Below, piece by piece: positions 4,201-35,347 of a DNA stretch of 53,176 nt. This DNA is from Candidatus Lambdaproteobacteria bacterium RIFOXYD2_FULL_50_16 (GTDB lineage Bacteria > SAR324 > XYD2-FULL-50-16): the NCBI GenBank assembly GCA_001783695.1, contig MFNE01000026.1, forward strand, positions 74,948-128,123, read 5' to 3'. The notes beneath the pieces were generated by a model that worked only from the letters and a program-made list of their open reading frames with translations, had not been told where the DNA came from and searched no databases. The translations under genes and the position numbers were made by a program. Each line of letters begins with the position of its first letter. Positions within the stretch are counted from its first letter, which is position 1.

Positions 4201-4279
4201 AAGCAAAAGGGGTGACAAAGGTTGGTTTTTTGTTGTAGTTTTGCCAGAAGACTTGACTTTTCAAACCTCGGAGAAACTT

Positions 4280-4702
4280 ATGTCCTTTATTGAATGGCAA
4301 GACCAACTGGCGACCCATATCTTTGTGGTTGATCAGGAACACCGCTTTTTGATCAAGACGTTGAACAAACTCCATGAGGTGGTCAACGAGTCTCAATTGA
4401 GTCAACAGGCACGAGATACTTTGGTTATGGAGGTTCTTAATGACCTGACCTTTTACACCCAAACCCATTTTGTGGTCGAAGAGGAATTGATGCGGGTATA
4501 TGCTTATCCTGGACTAGTTAACCACAAAGCTGAACATGACAGCTTTGTGGCCAAGGTGGGTTACCTTACCGGTGAGATCAAATCACATCCGATGGACATT
4601 TCGAACCATTTGTTAGGTTTTTTAAAGGATTGGCTGACCAAACATATCATGGTCATCGACTCGAATATGGGGAAGTTTCTTACAGAAAAGGGGCAAAACT
4701 GA
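4280..4702 (+). CDS. Bacteriohemerythrin (O2-binding di-iron protein)
   Basis: A 140-residue four-helix hemerythrin. Ligand motifs are visible in order: IEWQD near the N-terminus, VDQEH, HFVVEEELM, HKAEHDSF, and HIMVIDSNMG at the C-terminus, matching the His/Glu/Asp set that binds two irons and O2. The frame is open upstream to 4241, but the ATG at 4280 is preferred: GGAG lies seven bases before it and family members begin just ahead of the W-Q/D motif. The stop overlaps the next ATG by one base (TGATG), coupling it to a Cys-rich lipoprotein. It may store or deliver O2 or sense it for nearby signalling proteins; that role is inferred. Confidence 0.93.
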   Translation: MSFIEWQDQLATHIFVVDQEHRFLIKTLNKLHEVVNESQLSQQARDTLVMEVLNDLTFYTQTHFVVEEELMRVYAYPGLVNHKAEHDSFVAKVGYLTGEIKSHPMDISNHLLGFLKDWLTKHIMVIDSNMGKFLTEKGQN

Positions 4703-5010
4703 TGTTTAAGGGAATCAAGATTTGGTGGATGGTGGGTGGGATTTTTTTATTGGTCGGTTGCAACTCGGACTCTAATAATCCATACGTCAAACGGTGCCAG
4801 CAGACCTGTGAGACTAGCCCCATATTGATTGGGCTTGCCAGCAAGGTTGCTTATAAACCGATAAAACTCTGCAAACAACGCTGTGTTGATACGGAAGGCA
4901 CTTGTACAGATCAAAAAATCTCCAGCCGAGACCACCAAGCCTGTGTTTTCTTTGGAATTAATGCGGGAAGAAAACCAGGGGAATCGGGGCCCTTGTTAAA
5001 ATTCAATTAA
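4702..5010 (+). CDS. Small cysteine-rich lipoprotein, unknown function
   Basis: The 102-residue product starts with a signal segment of about 20 residues ending in the lipobox LLVGC, so it should be lipidated. The mature part contains a CQQTC pair, a CKQRC pair and two more Cys, i.e. two CxxxC motifs typical of helical-hairpin disulfide or metal-binding folds. The ATG overlaps the hemerythrin stop by one base and is preceded by AAGGGG, so the start is well supported despite an open frame beginning earlier at 4630. I recognise no family. Its tie to the hemerythrin is striking, because the two would sit on opposite sides of the inner membrane. Confidence 0.72.
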   Translation: MFKGIKIWWMVGGIFLLVGCNSDSNNPYVKRCQQTCETSPILIGLASKVAYKPIKLCKQRCVDTEGTCTDQKISSRDHQACVFFGINAGRKPGESGPLLKFN

Positions 5011-5135: not shown

Positions 5136-5348
5136 TTACCGCTTCGGCGACCTCTTGGTTTGGTCCAGTTCAAGGGGCTGGGAAAGTTCAAAACTTAGAG
5201 CCTCAATGGGAGTTATCCCCGGCGAGGGCACCTTGGGTAAAATTCGTTTCTTTTGGTCAATTTGATCTGCAAAGTGAGCGGGGCCGGTTTTGACTTGCGT
5301 GCAACTAGCCAAGGCTATCAGTCCAAAAAACAGGATTAGCTTGTTCAT
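5136..5348 (-). CDS. Small lipoprotein (70 aa), third gene of the MltF-MORN operon
   Basis: The start at 5348 gives MNKLILFFGLIALASC, a signal peptide ending in a textbook lipobox (LASC); the remaining ~54 residues are polar and without a recognised domain. AGAGG lies four bases before the ATG. The ATG overlaps the TGA of the MORN-repeat gene (ATGA), so translation should be coupled. The frame extends upstream to 5378, but that start would put a charged stretch before the signal sequence. Function unknown; position suggests it works with the MORN protein and lytic transglycosylase at the envelope. Confidence 0.68.
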   Translation of the reverse strand: MNKLILFFGLIALASCTQVKTGPAHFADQIDQKKRILPKVPSPGITPIEALSFELSQPLELDQTKRSPKR

Positions 5349-7177
5349 TTTGCCTCTAAAAGCTGGTCTTGATACCAAAGTCCAGAAAACACAGCGCCGT
5401 TGACCGAGGTATAGGTCCCTTGACCTTGGCGCAGGCCCGCTTGGAAGTGTCCATCAAAGATCGAGTAAATTTTGTCGGGCATTTGGTAATTATAAAGCCC
5501 TGACCCTTCGGGCCGATTCTCGACCCAGTCCCCTTGGTAAATGTCCCCATTTTTATACTCAAAAGTACCGGCTCCATGCCTAAGCCCGTGGGCGAAGTCG
5601 CCCTTATAGACCCCCGACTTAGGGTCAGACAGACTTCCAGACCCAGAATAAAGACCCGCTTTAAATTCCCCTACATACTCAAAACCACTTTTGGCCTTGT
5701 ATTTTCCGTTCCCTTCGAAGCGGTCATCTCGAAAATCACCTTCATATTGATCGCCGTTTCGGAAACTAAAGACTCCTTTGCCACTGCGTTTTTGTTCTTT
5801 AAATTCGCCTTGATATTTGTCCCCATTTTTAAAGCGGTACTCCCCCTGACCTGAAAACATACCTAGGTCAAACTCCCCTTTATAGGTGTCACCATTGGTA
5901 AAGGTTAAGGTGCCTTGGCCTTGGGCGCGGCTGTTTTTAAAGTCCCCTTGCAAGCGGTTTGCGTCTTTATAGGTCAAGACTCCTGGGCCGTCGAAGTGGC
6001 TCAATTTGAAGTCCCCTTTGTAAACATGGCCTTCGGTGAAGAAAAAGACCCCCTTGCCTGAAAACTGGTTGTCTTTAAACTCGCCCTGGTACAGGTCTTT
6101 GTTGGCAAAATGCATCACCCCTTGGCCCTGTTTGATATCTTCCTTGAAGTTCCCTTCAAACTGGTCTCCGTTTTGATAGAAGTACAAACCTTTACCTTCA
6201 AATTTACCACCCAAAAAAGGCCCTTGGTATCGGTCTCCATTGGCAAAGATCGCTTGGCCCTTGCCTTGGCGTAATCCTTTGAAAAATCCGCCTTCATAGC
6301 TATCCCCGTTGGCTAGCTTTTCCTTGCCCTGGCCGTTTAGTAAGCCGTCTTCAAACTGGCCTGAAAAGGAGTCCCCTAATCGGTTGGTTTTTTCGCCCTT
6401 GCCTGTGGCTTTGTCTTTGATAAAACTGCCAATATAATGGTCACCATTCGCCCAGGTCATATCTCCCTGACCGTCCATCTGGCCCATCACAAAGTTGCCC
6501 TCATACCGATCATTGCCAACTGTTACCAATAACCCTTGAGCGTGGTACCGGTCTTCTTTGAAGTTCCCTTCATAAAAACCCCCTGTATAATGAGTGAATT
6601 TTCCAGGACCTTCTTTGAGGTCATTTACGTAATAACCTTCATAAACATCGTTGTTGGCAAACTTATAGCGACCTTTGCCCTGTTTTTTACCTTGCAACAA
6701 GGTCCCTTCAAACGTATCGCCATTGCCGAACCGATATAATCCAAAGTTTTGCTTTTTGCCTAAAATAAACACGCCGTCATATTGGTCGCCATTGGCAGAG
6801 GTGAAAACCCCTTTGCCATGTTTGTAGTCCCCCTTAAAGCTACCCACATATTTTTCCCCAAAATGACTGGTCCACTCTCCTTGGCCTTCCTTATTATCCC
6901 CTTTAAATTCACCAATGTACTTGTCCCCATTTGAATAATTAAAGGTGCCACGGCCTGACTTTTGATCCTCCGAATAGGCTCCTTCAAAGAGGTCACCGTT
7001 TTTATACAGGTATTTTCCTGCGCCATTTTTCTGTCCGGCTTTGATTCGGCCCCAATACTGATCCCCATTTGGGTAAACATAGGGCTCTTTGAGGTAGTCC
7101 CCATCGATAGGTACCTGGGCCCAGAGGGGTAGAGCCAAAACAAAAACCAGGGTGAAAATTAGGGCAATGTGTTTCAT
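5345..7177 (-). CDS. Secreted protein built of 24 MORN repeats
   Basis: The 610-residue protein has a Sec signal peptide (to about residue 21, ...LPLWAQ). After a short lead-in, the rest consists of 23-residue MORN units with the pattern Y/F-x-G-x-F...G-x-G...NGD. I count 24 near-complete units (23 residues, two slightly longer at the end) plus a C-terminal part-unit, with no other domain. MORN repeats form extended beta-hairpin ribbons that bind proteins or lipids; here the signal peptide puts the ribbon in the periplasm or outside. The start overlaps the stop of the lytic transglycosylase by one base, and its stop overlaps the next lipoprotein start, so it is the middle gene of a tight operon. 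A scaffolding role in cell-wall turnover is inference. Confidence 0.9.
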   Translation of the reverse strand: MKHIALIFTLVFVLALPLWAQVPIDGDYLKEPYVYPNGDQYWGRIKAGQKNGAGKYLYKNGDLFEGAYSEDQKSGRGTFNYSNGDKYIGEFKGDNKEGQGEWTSHFGEKYVGSFKGDYKHGKGVFTSANGDQYDGVFILGKKQNFGLYRFGNGDTFEGTLLQGKKQGKGRYKFANNDVYEGYYVNDLKEGPGKFTHYTGGFYEGNFKEDRYHAQGLLVTVGNDRYEGNFVMGQMDGQGDMTWANGDHYIGSFIKDKATGKGEKTNRLGDSFSGQFEDGLLNGQGKEKLANGDSYEGGFFKGLRQGKGQAIFANGDRYQGPFLGGKFEGKGLYFYQNGDQFEGNFKEDIKQGQGVMHFANKDLYQGEFKDNQFSGKGVFFFTEGHVYKGDFKLSHFDGPGVLTYKDANRLQGDFKNSRAQGQGTLTFTNGDTYKGEFDLGMFSGQGEYRFKNGDKYQGEFKEQKRSGKGVFSFRNGDQYEGDFRDDRFEGNGKYKAKSGFEYVGEFKAGLYSGSGSLSDPKSGVYKGDFAHGLRHGAGTFEYKNGDIYQGDWVENRPEGSGLYNYQMPDKIYSIFDGHFQAGLRQGQGTYTSVNGAVFSGLWYQDQLLEAK

Positions 7178-9195
7178 TAAAAAGCCTGTGAGGGGATAAA
7201 TTCGGCGTACATGACATAACGTTTTTGGATCTCTTTGACATAACCAACGGGCTCACTTCCCCTGCAAAAGCCGTATTTTGCGGACTTATGGTACTGGGGC
7301 TGTTCCAAAAGGATTATTGCCCGCTCCACGTTGTTCTCCCAACGGTCTGGGTCTAGCCCTAATTTTTGAGCTAAAATACGGGCGTCACTGACGTGCCCAA
7401 AACCAGCGTTGTACGAAGCGAGCGTAAAATAGACCCGATCTTCTAAACGAGGGACCCGCTCGAAGCGGTTAAACATTCGTTTAAAATAGGTAACCCCGGC
7501 GCGAATGCCTGTGGCAGGCTCCAGCAGATCGGTAGCAGGGGATTTTAGGCCCAATTCTTTGCCTGTCGCAGGCATAACCTGCATCAATCCTAAAGCCCCG
7601 GCTCGGCTACGGGTTTTTGGGTCAAAGCGAGATTCTTGGAACATCTGGCTAGCAACAAGTCGCCAATCCAGGTTGGCTTTGAGGGCTTCTTGGTGCAAAA
7701 TCTCGTCGTAAGGGGAAATTTTTCCTGAAGCGTCGGCCCGGTCCATTCCACGGGCCATATTTATTAGGCCCTTGTTGGCAGTATATTTGATCTTCATTAT
7801 ATTGAAAAAACCGGACTTGCGGTTTTGATCAATATAATCATTTAACTCGGCTAAAAGCTCGGGATTGTCTTTGCGGACAGCAAATGCCAACGGCTGGTTT
7901 TTAAATAACACCCCAATCGATTGCAGCTTGCGGCCAAAAAACCGCTCGGCGTCCAGAGAGATTTGATCCGCTACACTCACTTCGATCAATCCTTGTTCTA
8001 GTTGGTCAAGCAGTTGTTCTGTTTCCACGTCTTCGGGCACCGGCGAAATCTCAAAAGGGCCATATTTTTCTTGAAGCGCTTCTAAATGTTGATAAGCGCT
8101 CGAACTTAGCCGCACATGAATGGTCTTACCTTTAAGGTCCTCAAGTCCTTTAATCGCCTTGTTGCCCGCTTTGACCACCACCAGTTCGTCGGTAATCAGA
8201 TAAGGCTTGGTAAAAGCGACTTGGGTCTCTAACTCAGCAGTAATCGGAAAAACGGAGCCAATCAAATCCCCTTTTTTTTCATTAAGCCAAGGGGCTAGTT
8301 CAGATTGGTAACTAGGTAAAACCACCTCTAAATGATATTTTTGTTTTTGGGCGAAGTCCTTTAGGATTTCGTAATCCATTCCAAAGTGGTTACCTTGGGC
8401 AATAAAAAAGCTAAGTAACTGATTGGTAGTCAACATCCGCAAATTACGCCCAGCCCCGTTTTGTACACTGCCTAACAATCCACCATTATTCGCCAACGCT
8501 TGGCTAAATAAAAACTGGTTAGTTTGTTGGCGCAGCCCTTGGGATTGAGGGCGCATGAAGAAGGCTATCCCCTGATTTTGAACAAGGGTTTCTTTGATCT
8601 CCAATTTAGGGAATCCCTGTGAGACTCGGTCCCAGAGAAAATTGCTGACCACCGTGGCGTCGCACTCGCCGTTTTGCACCCGTTCGAGTAAATCTTGAGA
8701 GTTAATAAAACTTGAGACCTCTTTTTTTTCGTACCCTTTACTGGGCAGGTCTTCTAAAAGAAGGGCTTCAGGGCTGTGTTGGCGGAAACAAAGGGACTTG
8801 GGTTTGCCCCCTTTATGAGCGATAACCACTTGATCAATGGTCAAATAGGTTATCGACTGGGTGAGTTCTGCAAAGCCTGGGGGAACCCCACGAATCGCGG
8901 CTACATCAACATTTCCTCGTTTGACCGCGTTGGCCATGTCCTCGACTCGCTCAAAGGTTTTAACCTGTGGAGTAAGTCCCAAATCGAGCGCCAGTTCAGA
9001 GGCGATTTGCCGGTCTAAAGTGATCGGGTCTGCGATTCCAGAACGGTGTTTTGAGGGTTCGATCCAGATACCAATTTTAAGTCTTCCACTTAAAAAGATA
9101 TCCAAGTAATCATCTTTCTGTTGAGTCGTAGCGCAACTGCTAAAGGTAGCGATAAGAGCAAATAATATAAGCAGGTTAACTTTTGTTACGCTCAT
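7177..9195 (-). CDS. MltF-like lipoprotein: two solute-binding domains plus lytic transglycosylase
   Basis: The start at 9195 (ATG) gives a lipoprotein signal with lipobox FSSC; a longer TTG frame begins at 9228. The mature protein has two SBP_bac_3-like lobes in tandem (about 30-240 and 245-480), then an SLT/GEWL transglycosylase domain (about 510-640). Its catalytic Glu is in MFQESRFDP, followed by GALGLMQVMPAT and the SYNAG motif. E. coli MltF has one SBP lobe; two are unusual. It would cleave peptidoglycan glycan strands to 1,6-anhydro products from an outer-membrane anchor, probably under ligand or muropeptide control. It leads an overlapping operon with the MORN protein and a small lipoprotein. 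Confidence 0.9.
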   Translation of the reverse strand: MSVTKVNLLILFALIATFSSCATTQQKDDYLDIFLSGRLKIGIWIEPSKHRSGIADPITLDRQIASELALDLGLTPQVKTFERVEDMANAVKRGNVDVAAIRGVPPGFAELTQSITYLTIDQVVIAHKGGKPKSLCFRQHSPEALLLEDLPSKGYEKKEVSSFINSQDLLERVQNGECDATVVSNFLWDRVSQGFPKLEIKETLVQNQGIAFFMRPQSQGLRQQTNQFLFSQALANNGGLLGSVQNGAGRNLRMLTTNQLLSFFIAQGNHFGMDYEILKDFAQKQKYHLEVVLPSYQSELAPWLNEKKGDLIGSVFPITAELETQVAFTKPYLITDELVVVKAGNKAIKGLEDLKGKTIHVRLSSSAYQHLEALQEKYGPFEISPVPEDVETEQLLDQLEQGLIEVSVADQISLDAERFFGRKLQSIGVLFKNQPLAFAVRKDNPELLAELNDYIDQNRKSGFFNIMKIKYTANKGLINMARGMDRADASGKISPYDEILHQEALKANLDWRLVASQMFQESRFDPKTRSRAGALGLMQVMPATGKELGLKSPATDLLEPATGIRAGVTYFKRMFNRFERVPRLEDRVYFTLASYNAGFGHVSDARILAQKLGLDPDRWENNVERAIILLEQPQYHKSAKYGFCRGSEPVGYVKEIQKRYVMYAEFIPSQAF

Positions 9196-9358
9196 GAGAA
9201 TAGGGGAAGTTTTGATAGAATTGACCAATTAGGTTAAACGATTGGATGAGCAAAGGTTGACCATTTTAGGTTAGATCGTCAAGGTTACTAAGTGCTATGC
9301 AGTCTAGATCTACAATGGTATTCTAAAATCAACCGGTTTTTTTATTTATAGGAGCGCA

Positions 9359-10570
9359 ATGAACACAAAGATTGATCTGCACCAAACCGTTTTGGCCCTT
9401 TCAGAGGCATTGGATTTGGTTGGTGTTGACGGGTTGCAACACGGAAAGCGGGTTGCTTACATGATGGTACAAGGTTGCTCGGGACTGCCTCCGATTTTAA
9501 ATGAAACGGAAATGTTTCAGTTAGGGATGTTACATGACATAGGGGTAAGCAGCACCGAAACCCATCAATATTTAGTAAAACACTTAGCTTGGGAAGGGGC
9601 TGAAGAACACTGTGATGTGGGTTTTCACCGGTTAATGCGCTTTGCACCCTTGGTTAAACTCGCGCCTTATGTGTTACACCACCACACCCGCTGGGATGAA
9701 TACCCCAGTTTAGGGGTACCCCCAGACGTCGCCTTAATTGCGAACTGGGTTTTTTTAACAGACCGGGTGGATGTAATGGCCGCAGGGCATTATGCCCATG
9801 ATATATTAGAAAAAAAAGAAGAAATCATTGCCAAGGTCGGTTACTTAAAGGGGCGTTATTTCGCCCCTGAATTGGTGGAGTTATTTTTACGGCTTTCTGG
9901 AAACGACGCCTTTTGGTTGGACCAAGAGCCGCGCCATTTGGTTCAATTTTTACAAAATGAAGTGGCTAGGTTACCTTTGGTCGATATTAGTTACAAAGAA
10001 CTAAAGAGTTTAGCCCAGATTTTTGCAGAGATCGTAGATACCAAAAGCCAGTTCACCCACGAACATTCGCTAGGGGTGGCTAGGTTGGCTAAGTATTTGG
10101 CGGTGCAATTCAAGGTGGATTCGGAAAATATAGAGCGCATTGAAATTGCGGGTCTGCTTCACGACTTGGGAAAGCTACAAACCCCAGACGAAATCTTAGA
10201 TAAACCAGGTCCATTGGACGAAGGGGAGCGCGCTCGGCTGAACCATCACAGCTACGAAACTTTTCAGATCTTGCATAAAATTACCGGCTTAGAGGATGTG
10301 GCTAATTGGGCTGCGTTACACCACGAATCCCCCAATGGTAAAGGATATCCCTTTCAACGCAAAGGGGGGGATTTGCCGATTGAGGCCCGGATTATTGCCG
10401 TTGCCGATGTGTTTCAAGCATTGGTGCAAAATCGTCCTTACCGCGTGGGTTTACCTGACTCAAAGGTTCGCCAGATCATTTTGGATTTTGCTGCGACCGG
10501 CAAATTGGACTCTGAAATTGCGAGTTGGGTTGCTGAACGGGTAGAAATATGTCGGCCTTTGGCGCAGTAG
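9359..10570 (+). CDS. Tandem HD / HD-GYP domain protein (c-di-GMP phosphodiesterase)
   Basis: The C-terminal half (about 215-400) is an HD-GYP domain with LLHDLGK, HHSYET, LHHESPNGKGYP and the RIIAVADVFQAL helix, the metal-binding set of enzymes that hydrolyse c-di-GMP. The N-terminal half (about 10-190) looks like a second, divergent HD domain: MLHDIG, then HHHTRWDEYP in place of GYP, and TDRVD. No receiver or membrane segment is present. ATG at 9359 follows GGAG by four bases. It is divergent from the MltF-like gene and lies upstream of a hemerythrin. With the cyclase at the window start it gives the region both halves of c-di-GMP turnover. Confidence 0.92.
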   Translation: MNTKIDLHQTVLALSEALDLVGVDGLQHGKRVAYMMVQGCSGLPPILNETEMFQLGMLHDIGVSSTETHQYLVKHLAWEGAEEHCDVGFHRLMRFAPLVKLAPYVLHHHTRWDEYPSLGVPPDVALIANWVFLTDRVDVMAAGHYAHDILEKKEEIIAKVGYLKGRYFAPELVELFLRLSGNDAFWLDQEPRHLVQFLQNEVARLPLVDISYKELKSLAQIFAEIVDTKSQFTHEHSLGVARLAKYLAVQFKVDSENIERIEIAGLLHDLGKLQTPDEILDKPGPLDEGERARLNHHSYETFQILHKITGLEDVANWAALHHESPNGKGYPFQRKGGDLPIEARIIAVADVFQALVQNRPYRVGLPDSKVRQIILDFAATGKLDSEIASWVAERVEICRPLAQ

Positions 10571-10670: not shown

Positions 10671-11111
10671 ATGGGCTCTGCTGTTTGGTCTGCTGACCTA
10701 GAAGTGGGCCTGCTTTGGCAGGATCACCAACACAAGCGTTTTTTTGTCATTCGGGACCAGCTAGCCCGTAGCTCAAAGCTAGAAGACAAACGGTCTTTTA
10801 AGTTGGCCCTGTTACAGCTTGAAAATTATGTGCAAGACCATTTCTCCTTAGAAGAAATCTACATGAACCAGTCTAATTACCCTGGTTCAGCAGACCACTT
10901 TAAGGAACACCAAATCTTTATCCATAAACTCAACCGCGCCAAGCGGGAGTTTAAGTTGTACCTAAAGGAATTGGCGGAAGAAGGTTACACCGGAACCAAC
11001 CCTTGGCTGGACCTTAGCCTGGATTTAGAGATTTGGTTTGTAGAGCATATCAACGGGACGGATCGCAGGTTGGCCAATTGGATTATAAGTCATCCAGTAC
11101 AGCCCACCTAG
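10671..11111 (+). CDS. Bacteriohemerythrin (second copy)
   Basis: A 146-residue hemerythrin-fold protein, divergent from the copy at 4280. Ligand motifs: WQDHQHKRFF, HFSLEEIYM, HFKEHQIF and WFVEHINGTDRRL, giving the expected His and Glu/Asp ligands for a di-iron site. The ATG has a strong GGAGG six bases upstream. Monocistronic: the ODP-linked kinase ends 12 bases downstream on the other strand. Probably an O2-binding protein for sensing or delivery near the inner membrane; which partner it serves is not evident. The internal region after the fourth helix start is a little longer than usual. Confidence 0.92.
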   Translation: MGSAVWSADLEVGLLWQDHQHKRFFVIRDQLARSSKLEDKRSFKLALLQLENYVQDHFSLEEIYMNQSNYPGSADHFKEHQIFIHKLNRAKREFKLYLKELAEEGYTGTNPWLDLSLDLEIWFVEHINGTDRRLANWIISHPVQPT

Positions 11112-33380: not shown

Positions 33381-33538
33381 AATTCTCCTTTGGTTTATTC
33401 GTTTTAAGATAGTTTAACAGTGATTGTTTCTTTAAGCCAGTCTGGTCCCGAGTTCCTCTTTGATTAGCTATAAAAAAAGGTCAAATCGGCATGATCCTTG
33501 TATTTGAAAGGGCCAGTTTCCCTAAGCCGCTAAAGGTT

Positions 33539-35347
33539 ATGTCTCGCACTCTGATTTTATTATTAATGGTCCTTTTTTCCCTCAGCGGTTGCGGGGATAG
33601 AGCATTAGAACAATTAAAACAGCAGTCTGGCAAAGACAGACCCTACCAAGCCTATAACTTCGAAAACTGGGATCTAAGGGGGATGGACTTTTCTGGAGCC
33701 AACCTGAAAGAGGTAAACCTACGTTACGCGGACCTTAGAAAGGCGGTTTTAAAAAAGGCCGATCTCAAATATGCAGATCTCCGCGCGGCCCGTTTTTTGG
33801 GCGCTGATTTTACCGGCTCCAACCTTCCATTAGCGCAACTCTTTGAAGCCGACCTGCGGGGCGGAATATACGACGATATAGATTGGCGAGGTTACGATTT
33901 CGAACGGACTTCGCTATTTAATACCAGTTTTAAGCGGTCGCTGCTGGCTGGAGTTAGCTTTGAAAGTTGCGATTTAAGGCAATCCGATTTTTCCGAAACC
34001 GACCTACGTCAAACCCAATTCAATTTTGCCCAGCTAACCAAAACAAAGTTTATCGGCGCCAATCTAACTGGCGTCGATTTGAGTAATCAGGACCTTAGAG
34101 AGGCAGACTTTAGCAAAGCTAACCTGACGGGCACCTCTTTTCATGGCTCCAACCTGGAGGGGGCCAAAATTGAAAATGCCATAATTAATGGCACCGATTT
34201 CACCAAAGCTAATCTGGCGGGGATCGACTTTTCTGGCGCAGTGATTGAGTCGGCAACGTTTAAAGGGGCTATCTTAGTAAAGCCTAAATTTAATTCGGCC
34301 CAGATCAACCGGATCAATTTTGACGGGTTCGACTTCACCAAAGCCAGCTTTAGAGGTGCTTGGATTCGCCATACCAGTTTTATCGAGACCAACCTGACAC
34401 AAGCCGATTTTTCGTTTGCCCTTTTAGAGGACGTGCTTTTAAAAAACTCTAAATTAACCAACGCCAATATTACGGAAGCTGATTTTTCTAAAGCCTTGCT
34501 TTATAAAACCGATTTTTCGGGAGTGCGTTTTACGGGCGCCCTGTTTCCCACGGTAACAGAAAAGAATTCTGGGCTGATATTTGTCCAAGCCCCGATGGGA
34601 TGTTATCTGATGGGGGATACCTTCGGGGAGGACATCGGGTTTGATGTGTCCCCACACCGGGTTTGTTTAGGGGATTTTTTTATTGCGCAGCGCGAAGTGA
34701 CTCAAGAGCAATTTGAAGCGGTTATGGGGTACAACCCTAGCTATCATCGAAACCGCGAAAAACGCACCCCCGTTGAAAACATCTCCAATTTGGAAGCAGA
34801 TAATTTTATTGTTCGCTTAATGGCTAAATCAGGCTGGACCCTTAGGCTACCAACCGAAGCCGAATGGGAGTATGCTTGTCGCGACTTAGGGGGCAACGGG
34901 CGTTTTGGTAACGGCACTAATTTAGCCAATCCCAAGGAAATTGCTTTTAATGCCCAAATGAGTGAGCTTGGACAAAAACGTCTGTTGCGCCAGGAGAATA
35001 AAATCTACCAATCAGGTCTTAATTGGGAAGAACCGGTACCGGTGGGGATGTTTAAACCGAATCGCTTAGGGTTATATGATATGAGTGGCAACGTCGCTGA
35101 ATTGGTGGGCGACCCTTGGGACACCAACGCTTATCAACAAGACGTTGCCGCCAATCCCAAATTAAAACTGGAGCGTTCAGCCCATGGGGTTAGAGGAGGC
35201 CATTATGGATCAGGAGCCAGCCACATTCGCTGCTCAAAACGCAGTTTTATGATGGACCAAGAGATTGACCGGAGGATCGGCTTTCGGGTGGTTAAAGAAA
35301 TCACCGAGTCTGATCTTAAAGACGTCAAACGGTTTCAGTTAGAGTAA
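33539..35347 (+). CDS. Lipoprotein fusing pentapeptide repeats to an FGE/SUMF1-like domain
   Basis: 602 residues from the ATG at 33539, chosen because it gives a signal peptide ending in the lipobox LSGC; AAAGG is only two bases upstream. Residues about 35-340 are pentapeptide repeats of the A(D/N)LxX type (FSGANLKEVNLRYADLRKAV and many more), forming a right-handed beta-helix. Residues about 345-600 form an FGE-sulfatase/SUMF1-like domain: EVTQEQFEAVMGYNP, LRLPTEAEWEYACR, LYDMSGNVAEL and GFRVV. The active-site Cys pair of true formylglycine-generating enzymes is not seen, so it may be a binding rather than catalytic version. The next gene starts two bases later. Confidence 0.87.
   Translation: MSRTLILLLMVLFSLSGCGDRALEQLKQQSGKDRPYQAYNFENWDLRGMDFSGANLKEVNLRYADLRKAVLKKADLKYADLRAARFLGADFTGSNLPLAQLFEADLRGGIYDDIDWRGYDFERTSLFNTSFKRSLLAGVSFESCDLRQSDFSETDLRQTQFNFAQLTKTKFIGANLTGVDLSNQDLREADFSKANLTGTSFHGSNLEGAKIENAIINGTDFTKANLAGIDFSGAVIESATFKGAILVKPKFNSAQINRINFDGFDFTKASFRGAWIRHTSFIETNLTQADFSFALLEDVLLKNSKLTNANITEADFSKALLYKTDFSGVRFTGALFPTVTEKNSGLIFVQAPMGCYLMGDTFGEDIGFDVSPHRVCLGDFFIAQREVTQEQFEAVMGYNPSYHRNREKRTPVENISNLEADNFIVRLMAKSGWTLRLPTEAEWEYACRDLGGNGRFGNGTNLANPKEIAFNAQMSELGQKRLLRQENKIYQSGLNWEEPVPVGMFKPNRLGLYDMSGNVAELVGDPWDTNAYQQDVAANPKLKLERSAHGVRGGHYGSGASHIRCSKRSFMMDQEIDRRIGFRVVKEITESDLKDVKRFQLE

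Follow-up and report, generated by a model that had tools for sequence, protein, structure and literature searches.

Organization of the three-gene locus

The window, meaning the whole stretch of 53,176 nucleotides analyzed from Candidatus Lambdaproteobacteria bacterium RIFOXYD2_FULL_50_16 (SAR324), contained three genes overlapping in series on the minus strand. They encode a lytic transglycosylase (P0001), a secreted MORN protein (P0002), and a small lipoprotein (P0003), and their features are listed in Table 1. At the first junction the TAA stop of the transglycosylase and the ATG start of the MORN gene had base 7177 in common (TTTTTAATGAAACAC), an overlap of 1 base. At the second, the MORN and small lipoprotein genes shared the 4 bases ATGA at 5348-5345 (GGCAAAATGAACAAG). 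The start of the transglycosylase at 9195 was an ATG, which is codon 12 of a longer ORF opening with TTG. Gene order, overlaps, domain content, and catalytic motifs were established by reading the ORFs and their alignments, and the Sec signals were judged by hydrophobicity and inspection. The re-reading confirmed the coordinates, strand, overlaps, and single operon of the initial annotation, and the signals and domains agreed with its description of three envelope genes (a transglycosylase, a Sec-signalled all-MORN protein, and a small lipoprotein). The GC content of the three genes was 0.46-0.49, compared with 0.468 for the window, so composition gave no sign of recent acquisition.

Table 1. 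Features of the three-gene locus in window coordinates.
Feature	Position	Strand	Basis
MltF-family lytic transglycosylase P0001, lipoprotein, 672 aa	7177..9195	-	Pfam, NCBIfam, PDB MltF 5aa2, sensor profile
Sensor 1, extra N-terminal solute-binding domain, residues ~30-248	8451..9108	-	MltF sensor profile, hhalign, BLAST
Sensor 2, canonical MltF sensor, residues ~250-475	7771..8448	-	Sensor profile 3.6e-26, alignment to 5aa2
SLT catalytic domain, residues 495-660	7216..7713	-	Pfam SLT, motif alignment
Secreted MORN protein P0002, 610 aa, Sec signal 1-20, repeats at residues 41-596	5345..7177	-	Pfam MORN, repeat register
Small lipoprotein P0003, 70 aa, lipobox LASC, family none	5136..5348	-	Sequence features

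The operon was flanked by genes for an HD-domain (HD-GYP-type) protein and two hemerythrin-domain proteins, at 9359-10570, 10671-11111, and 4241-4702, all on the plus strand. Immediately beyond the downstream end of the operon, the other strand carried a small lipoprotein-like ORF with no Pfam match (4630-5010, plus strand, from about 4702, MLFKGIKIWWMVGGIFLLVGCNSDSN...). The wider window was rich in sensory genes, including methyl-accepting chemotaxis proteins (MCPs) with CZB, dCache, and NIT domains, and it also held 7TMR-DISM and PAS proteins bearing kinase and response-regulator domains. In addition, one protein at 33491-35347 (plus strand) combined pentapeptide repeats (6e-57) with an FGE-sulfatase domain (9e-32).

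The transglycosylase and its doubled sensor

P0001 had a signal with a lipobox-like site at Cys21 and matched the Pfam families SLT (4.9e-23) and SBP_bac_3 (5.6e-22). Residues 252-661 were collinear with residues 54-460 of MltF (PDB 5aa2, 1.1e-43), and the SBP_bac_3-type domain lay directly N-terminal of the SLT domain, as in MltF. In the alignment to 5aa2 the SLT (family 1) motifs FQES, with the catalytic Glu, GLMQVMPAT, and SYNAG were all present. The highest identities of P0001 were 33-34%, to MltF-like proteins of Klebsiella and Bacteroides in plasmid records. The NCBIfam MltF model NF008112 gave 334.1 bits against an equivalog cut-off of 354, and P0001 was therefore classed as MltF-like and not as MltF. 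The known P. aeruginosa MltF structures (5aa1-5aa4, 4oyv, and 5a5x) and MltF2-like proteins have a sensor followed by SLT, like residues 252-661 of P0001; P0001 differed from MltF by one additional N-terminal sensor, a missing pocket Arg, and the score below the cut-off. A single-sequence AlphaFold2 model of P0001 had a mean pLDDT of 34. The sequence comparisons supported an assignment of P0001 to the MltF type of lytic transglycosylase, extended by one solute-binding domain, and we infer that it has enzyme activity, lies at the outer membrane, and is switched.

The nature of the N-terminal domain was examined by several comparisons. Pfam SBP_bac_3 matched residues 27-250 alone only weakly (E 0.0037); it was the best family, and the next was another solute-binding family. 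A sensor profile was built from 12 MltF sensor domains of relatives, with P0001 left out. It matched P0001 twice, at residues 62-229 (i-Evalue 1.6e-9, 23.7 bits) and at residues 252-471 (3.6e-26, 78.1 bits), the E-values referring to one-sequence searches. On these matches, the alternative that residues 30-250 form some other kind of domain was rejected. With hhalign against the MltF sensor profile, sensor 1 reached 97% and sensor 2 98.8%, whereas the SLT domain, used as a control, reached 0.1%. Moreover, sensor 1 and sensor 2 matched each other by BLAST with an E-value of 6.8e-6. The simplest account of these similarities is that the N-terminal domain arose by tandem duplication of the MltF sensor. 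The initial annotation had described two solute-binding lobes in place of the one in MltF; the second sensor was borne out, and the wording was not, as MltF has one two-lobed domain and P0001 has two such domains. The profile searches proposed there for each domain recovered SLT, both sensors, and MORN.

The occurrence of the doubled sensor was surveyed among genomes, plasmids, and phages. In 52 genomes of the phylum there were four full-length MltF relatives besides P0001, all from another family of the same class, each of about 455-490 aa with a single sensor. Two further phyla, represented by 291 and 77 genomes, were searched as well; among the matches listed, none reached over sensor 1, and the second phylum (77 genomes) held eight full-length MltF relatives with a single sensor each; a third, small phylum of 17 genomes gave no match at E 1e-20. 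Among 72,556 plasmid records, 36 matched P0001, none of them across 80% of the query, and the four plasmid relatives read (from Klebsiella, Bacteroides, and two rhizobia) each had a single sensor. Three phage records matched P0001, none over sensor 1, and a scan of viral contigs with P0001 found no relative. A scan of 84,980 genomes with 8-mer peptides of the sensor region, of low sensitivity at this divergence, returned only a Citrobacter amino-acid-binding protein (27%). Two candidates for a second double-sensor protein were rejected. The apparent extra domain of a 580-aa relative (locus L079) was a stretch without sensor similarity that resembled upstream non-coding sequence, and the extra stretch of a Sinorhizobium match starting at query residue 190 was of the same kind.

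Thus, the extra sensor was absent from the 12 genome relatives and the 4 plasmid relatives read. Since all other full-length MltF relatives inspected had a single sensor, a double-sensor MltF is rare within what was searched, and uniqueness is not claimed. The double sensor of P0001 is the part of the initial argument that stands.

The MORN protein and the small lipoprotein

P0002 contained 23 repeat units in a strict 23-residue register from residue 41 and one further unit after a 4-residue insertion, and the register bore out the exact count of 24 repeats given in the initial annotation. Within the repeat, G3 and G14 were invariant and G12 occurred in 22 of the 24 units. The Pfam MORN family (PF02493) matched with an E-value of 4.5e-92, the YxGxF...GxG consensus fitted, and on inspection the signal sequence (MKHIALIFTLVFVLALPLWAQ) looked like a Sec signal. 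The nearest solved relatives were eukaryotic MORN1 proteins (6t4d, 4.4e-44). The MORN1 proteins of Trypanosoma and Apicomplexa (6t4d, 6t4r, and 6t68) consist solely of 23-residue MORN repeats, like P0002; however, eukaryotic MORN1 is cytoplasmic, whereas P0002 is Sec-signalled. A structure model of the MORN protein was all-beta with a pLDDT of 62, and its best Foldseek match (E 0.11, to beta-helical proteins) was not significant, nor was any other; the sequence match to MORN1 was relied on instead. MORN1-type proteins are elongated, nine repeats spanning about 80 Å (PMC7725318); at 8.9 Å per repeat, the 24 repeats of P0002 would extend over about 21 nm by extrapolation.

MORN proteins in prokaryotes are already on record (PMC7725318), and the MORN4 work cited in PMC11595200 indicates that MORN repeats can act as protein-binding modules. 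In Fusobacterium, MORN-type proteins, of other MORN variants than P0002, copurify with FtsX/EnvC (PMC5915739). A previous study of SAR324 mentions a phage island that includes a MORN region (PMC4782131). In our study, MORN matches were found in 34 of the 52 genomes of the phylum, with up to 46 per genome. A signal-like hydrophobic N-terminus, defined as a Kyte-Doolittle maximum of at least 2, was present in 22 of the 24 MORN relatives with a complete N-terminus. Secreted all-MORN proteins, which the initial annotation had considered unusual in bacteria, are therefore common in this phylum. The relatives mostly had 4-30 repeats, and one of them had 30. Secreted MORN proteins were strongly multiplied in one class of the phylum (for example at 7532-9856 of locus L093), and two loci, L099 and L100, carried clusters of four to five MORN genes within 17 kb. 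The MORN expansion in that class looks more interesting than the single MORN gene of the window.

P0003 had a clean lipobox, and its gene was preceded by an AGAGG Shine-Dalgarno-like stretch. No known family was found for it in Pfam or NCBIfam, and the 51 other genomes of the phylum gave a single marginal match (E 0.007). Going by sequence features, namely the signal, the lipobox, and the 4 bases shared with the MORN gene, P0003 is probably a real gene.

Possible roles of the three products

In P. aeruginosa, MltF is switched on by muropeptides that engage its N-terminal domain, and it is inhibited by the Sel1-repeat protein IltA, which is itself sequestered by the outer-membrane lipoprotein LiiA (PMC10746161). 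The trio likewise comprises an MltF-type enzyme, a repeat protein, and a lipoprotein. It differs from that system in that IltA has three Sel1 repeats where P0002 has MORN repeats, LiiA is larger than P0003 and two-domain, and the genes of IltA, LiiA, and MltF are unlinked whereas the trio is linked. The likeness is one of composition, and no homology is claimed. As the same three kinds of part are present, we tentatively favor, at somewhat less than even confidence, a lineage-specific operon in which a double-sensor transglycosylase is placed or restrained by a MORN rod and a lipoprotein. The first product would be an outer-membrane-anchored lytic transglycosylase of the MltF family, its regulatory part enlarged to two sensors by a tandem duplication. 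The inner sensor 2, in the canonical position beside the catalytic domain, would probably still switch the enzyme, and the outer, more diverged sensor 1 would serve as a further input or as a binding arm. The second product may be a rod about 21 nm long, built from the 24 MORN repeats and soluble in the periplasm, that binds proteins along its groove, and the third a small outer-membrane lipoprotein. Rod and lipoprotein would most likely localize or restrain the transglycosylase, as IltA and LiiA do for MltF of P. aeruginosa. A physical interaction of the three products is speculative.

About equally likely, and held with the same tentative confidence, is that the three genes are chance neighbours: an ordinary wall-turnover enzyme, an unrelated secreted MORN protein with a surface or envelope role, and an orphan lineage-specific lipoprotein. 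The initial annotation had proposed a co-occurrence check and made its own model depend on conservation of the trio. The trio was seen once: it was found in no other genome searched, including 51 others of the phylum and none of the same genus, and was thus not conserved in this sample. No transglycosylase-like ORF adjoined the MORN gene at the loci inspected from the same family (L091, L103, L104, and L107), and the MltF loci L108-L110 had no MORN gene, the neighbouring ORFs being judged by their first residues and the earlier transglycosylase search. Furthermore, MltF and MORN presence in the phylum were not associated (MORN in 3/5 against 31/47; Fisher p = 1.0). The phylum is rich in secreted MORN proteins, Sec-signalled like P0002 and, in the loci read, without an adjoining transglycosylase, which also favors chance. 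However, the two consecutive overlaps suggest translational coupling, which is commoner for functionally linked products, and the only MltF-like gene and the only MORN gene of the genome stand side by side. Since the trio was confined to one searched genome, it was regarded as a variant particular to this lineage and assembled from known parts, which may plausibly cooperate.

What the sensors of P0001 might bind was considered from the pocket residues. In amino-acid-binding proteins of this family, an Arg and an Asp hold the carboxylate and the amine of the ligand. In our alignments, the Arg in the motif TxTxxR-xxxFxFGPxY and the Asp in (V/I)ADSN were each present in 11 of the 12 relatives. 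In sensor 2, a Leu replaced the conserved Arg and the Asp was kept. In sensor 1, the Arg position fell at a gap of two residues with a Gly close by, and a Ser replaced the Asp; this domain was also shortened and far more diverged than sensor 2. With the Arg gone from both sensors and the Asp from sensor 1, ligand switching has perhaps been lost, and on these alignments both sensors may bind something else, or nothing. The loss of both residues from sensor 1, its shortening, and its lower profile score would also fit a domain that is no longer a sensor and serves as a protein- or glycan-binding arm through which the enzyme docks, perhaps to the MORN rod or to the lipoprotein. This reading is possible but rather unlikely, as the divergence could also mean a new ligand; it concerns one part and is compatible with the placed or restrained transglycosylase preferred above. 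The model of the initial annotation, in which both sensors ligand-gate the enzyme and the three proteins assemble on a MORN ribbon into a single remodelling complex, is improbable: two MltF-type sensors, the muropeptide switching of P. aeruginosa MltF (PMC10746161), and the shared operon are in its favor, and the pocket residues and the lack of conservation of the trio are against it.

Tandem solute-binding domains before an output domain are also known elsewhere. BvgS-type sensor kinases have tandem venus-flytrap domains ahead of a histidine kinase output. The arrangement in P0001 is similar, but the BvgS-type output is a histidine kinase acting through the membrane, whereas that of P0001 is a wall-cleaving enzyme. 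The doubled MltF sensor asks whether one enzyme integrates two wall signals.

Bacterial MORN repeats are widespread, and hardly any have a known function. The locus bears on where lytic transglycosylases are put to work and how they are kept in check. If its products do not interact, it is an ordinary operon. A single MltF-like gene overlapping a single MORN gene offers a simple test case for MORN control of wall hydrolases. It is conceivable, though improbable, that the locus is a self-contained MORN-based control module, in which a periplasmic MORN rod of about 21 nm and a lipoprotein anchor would place or check a tandem-sensor MltF-type enzyme. If true, bacteria would have their own MORN scaffold for wall remodelling.
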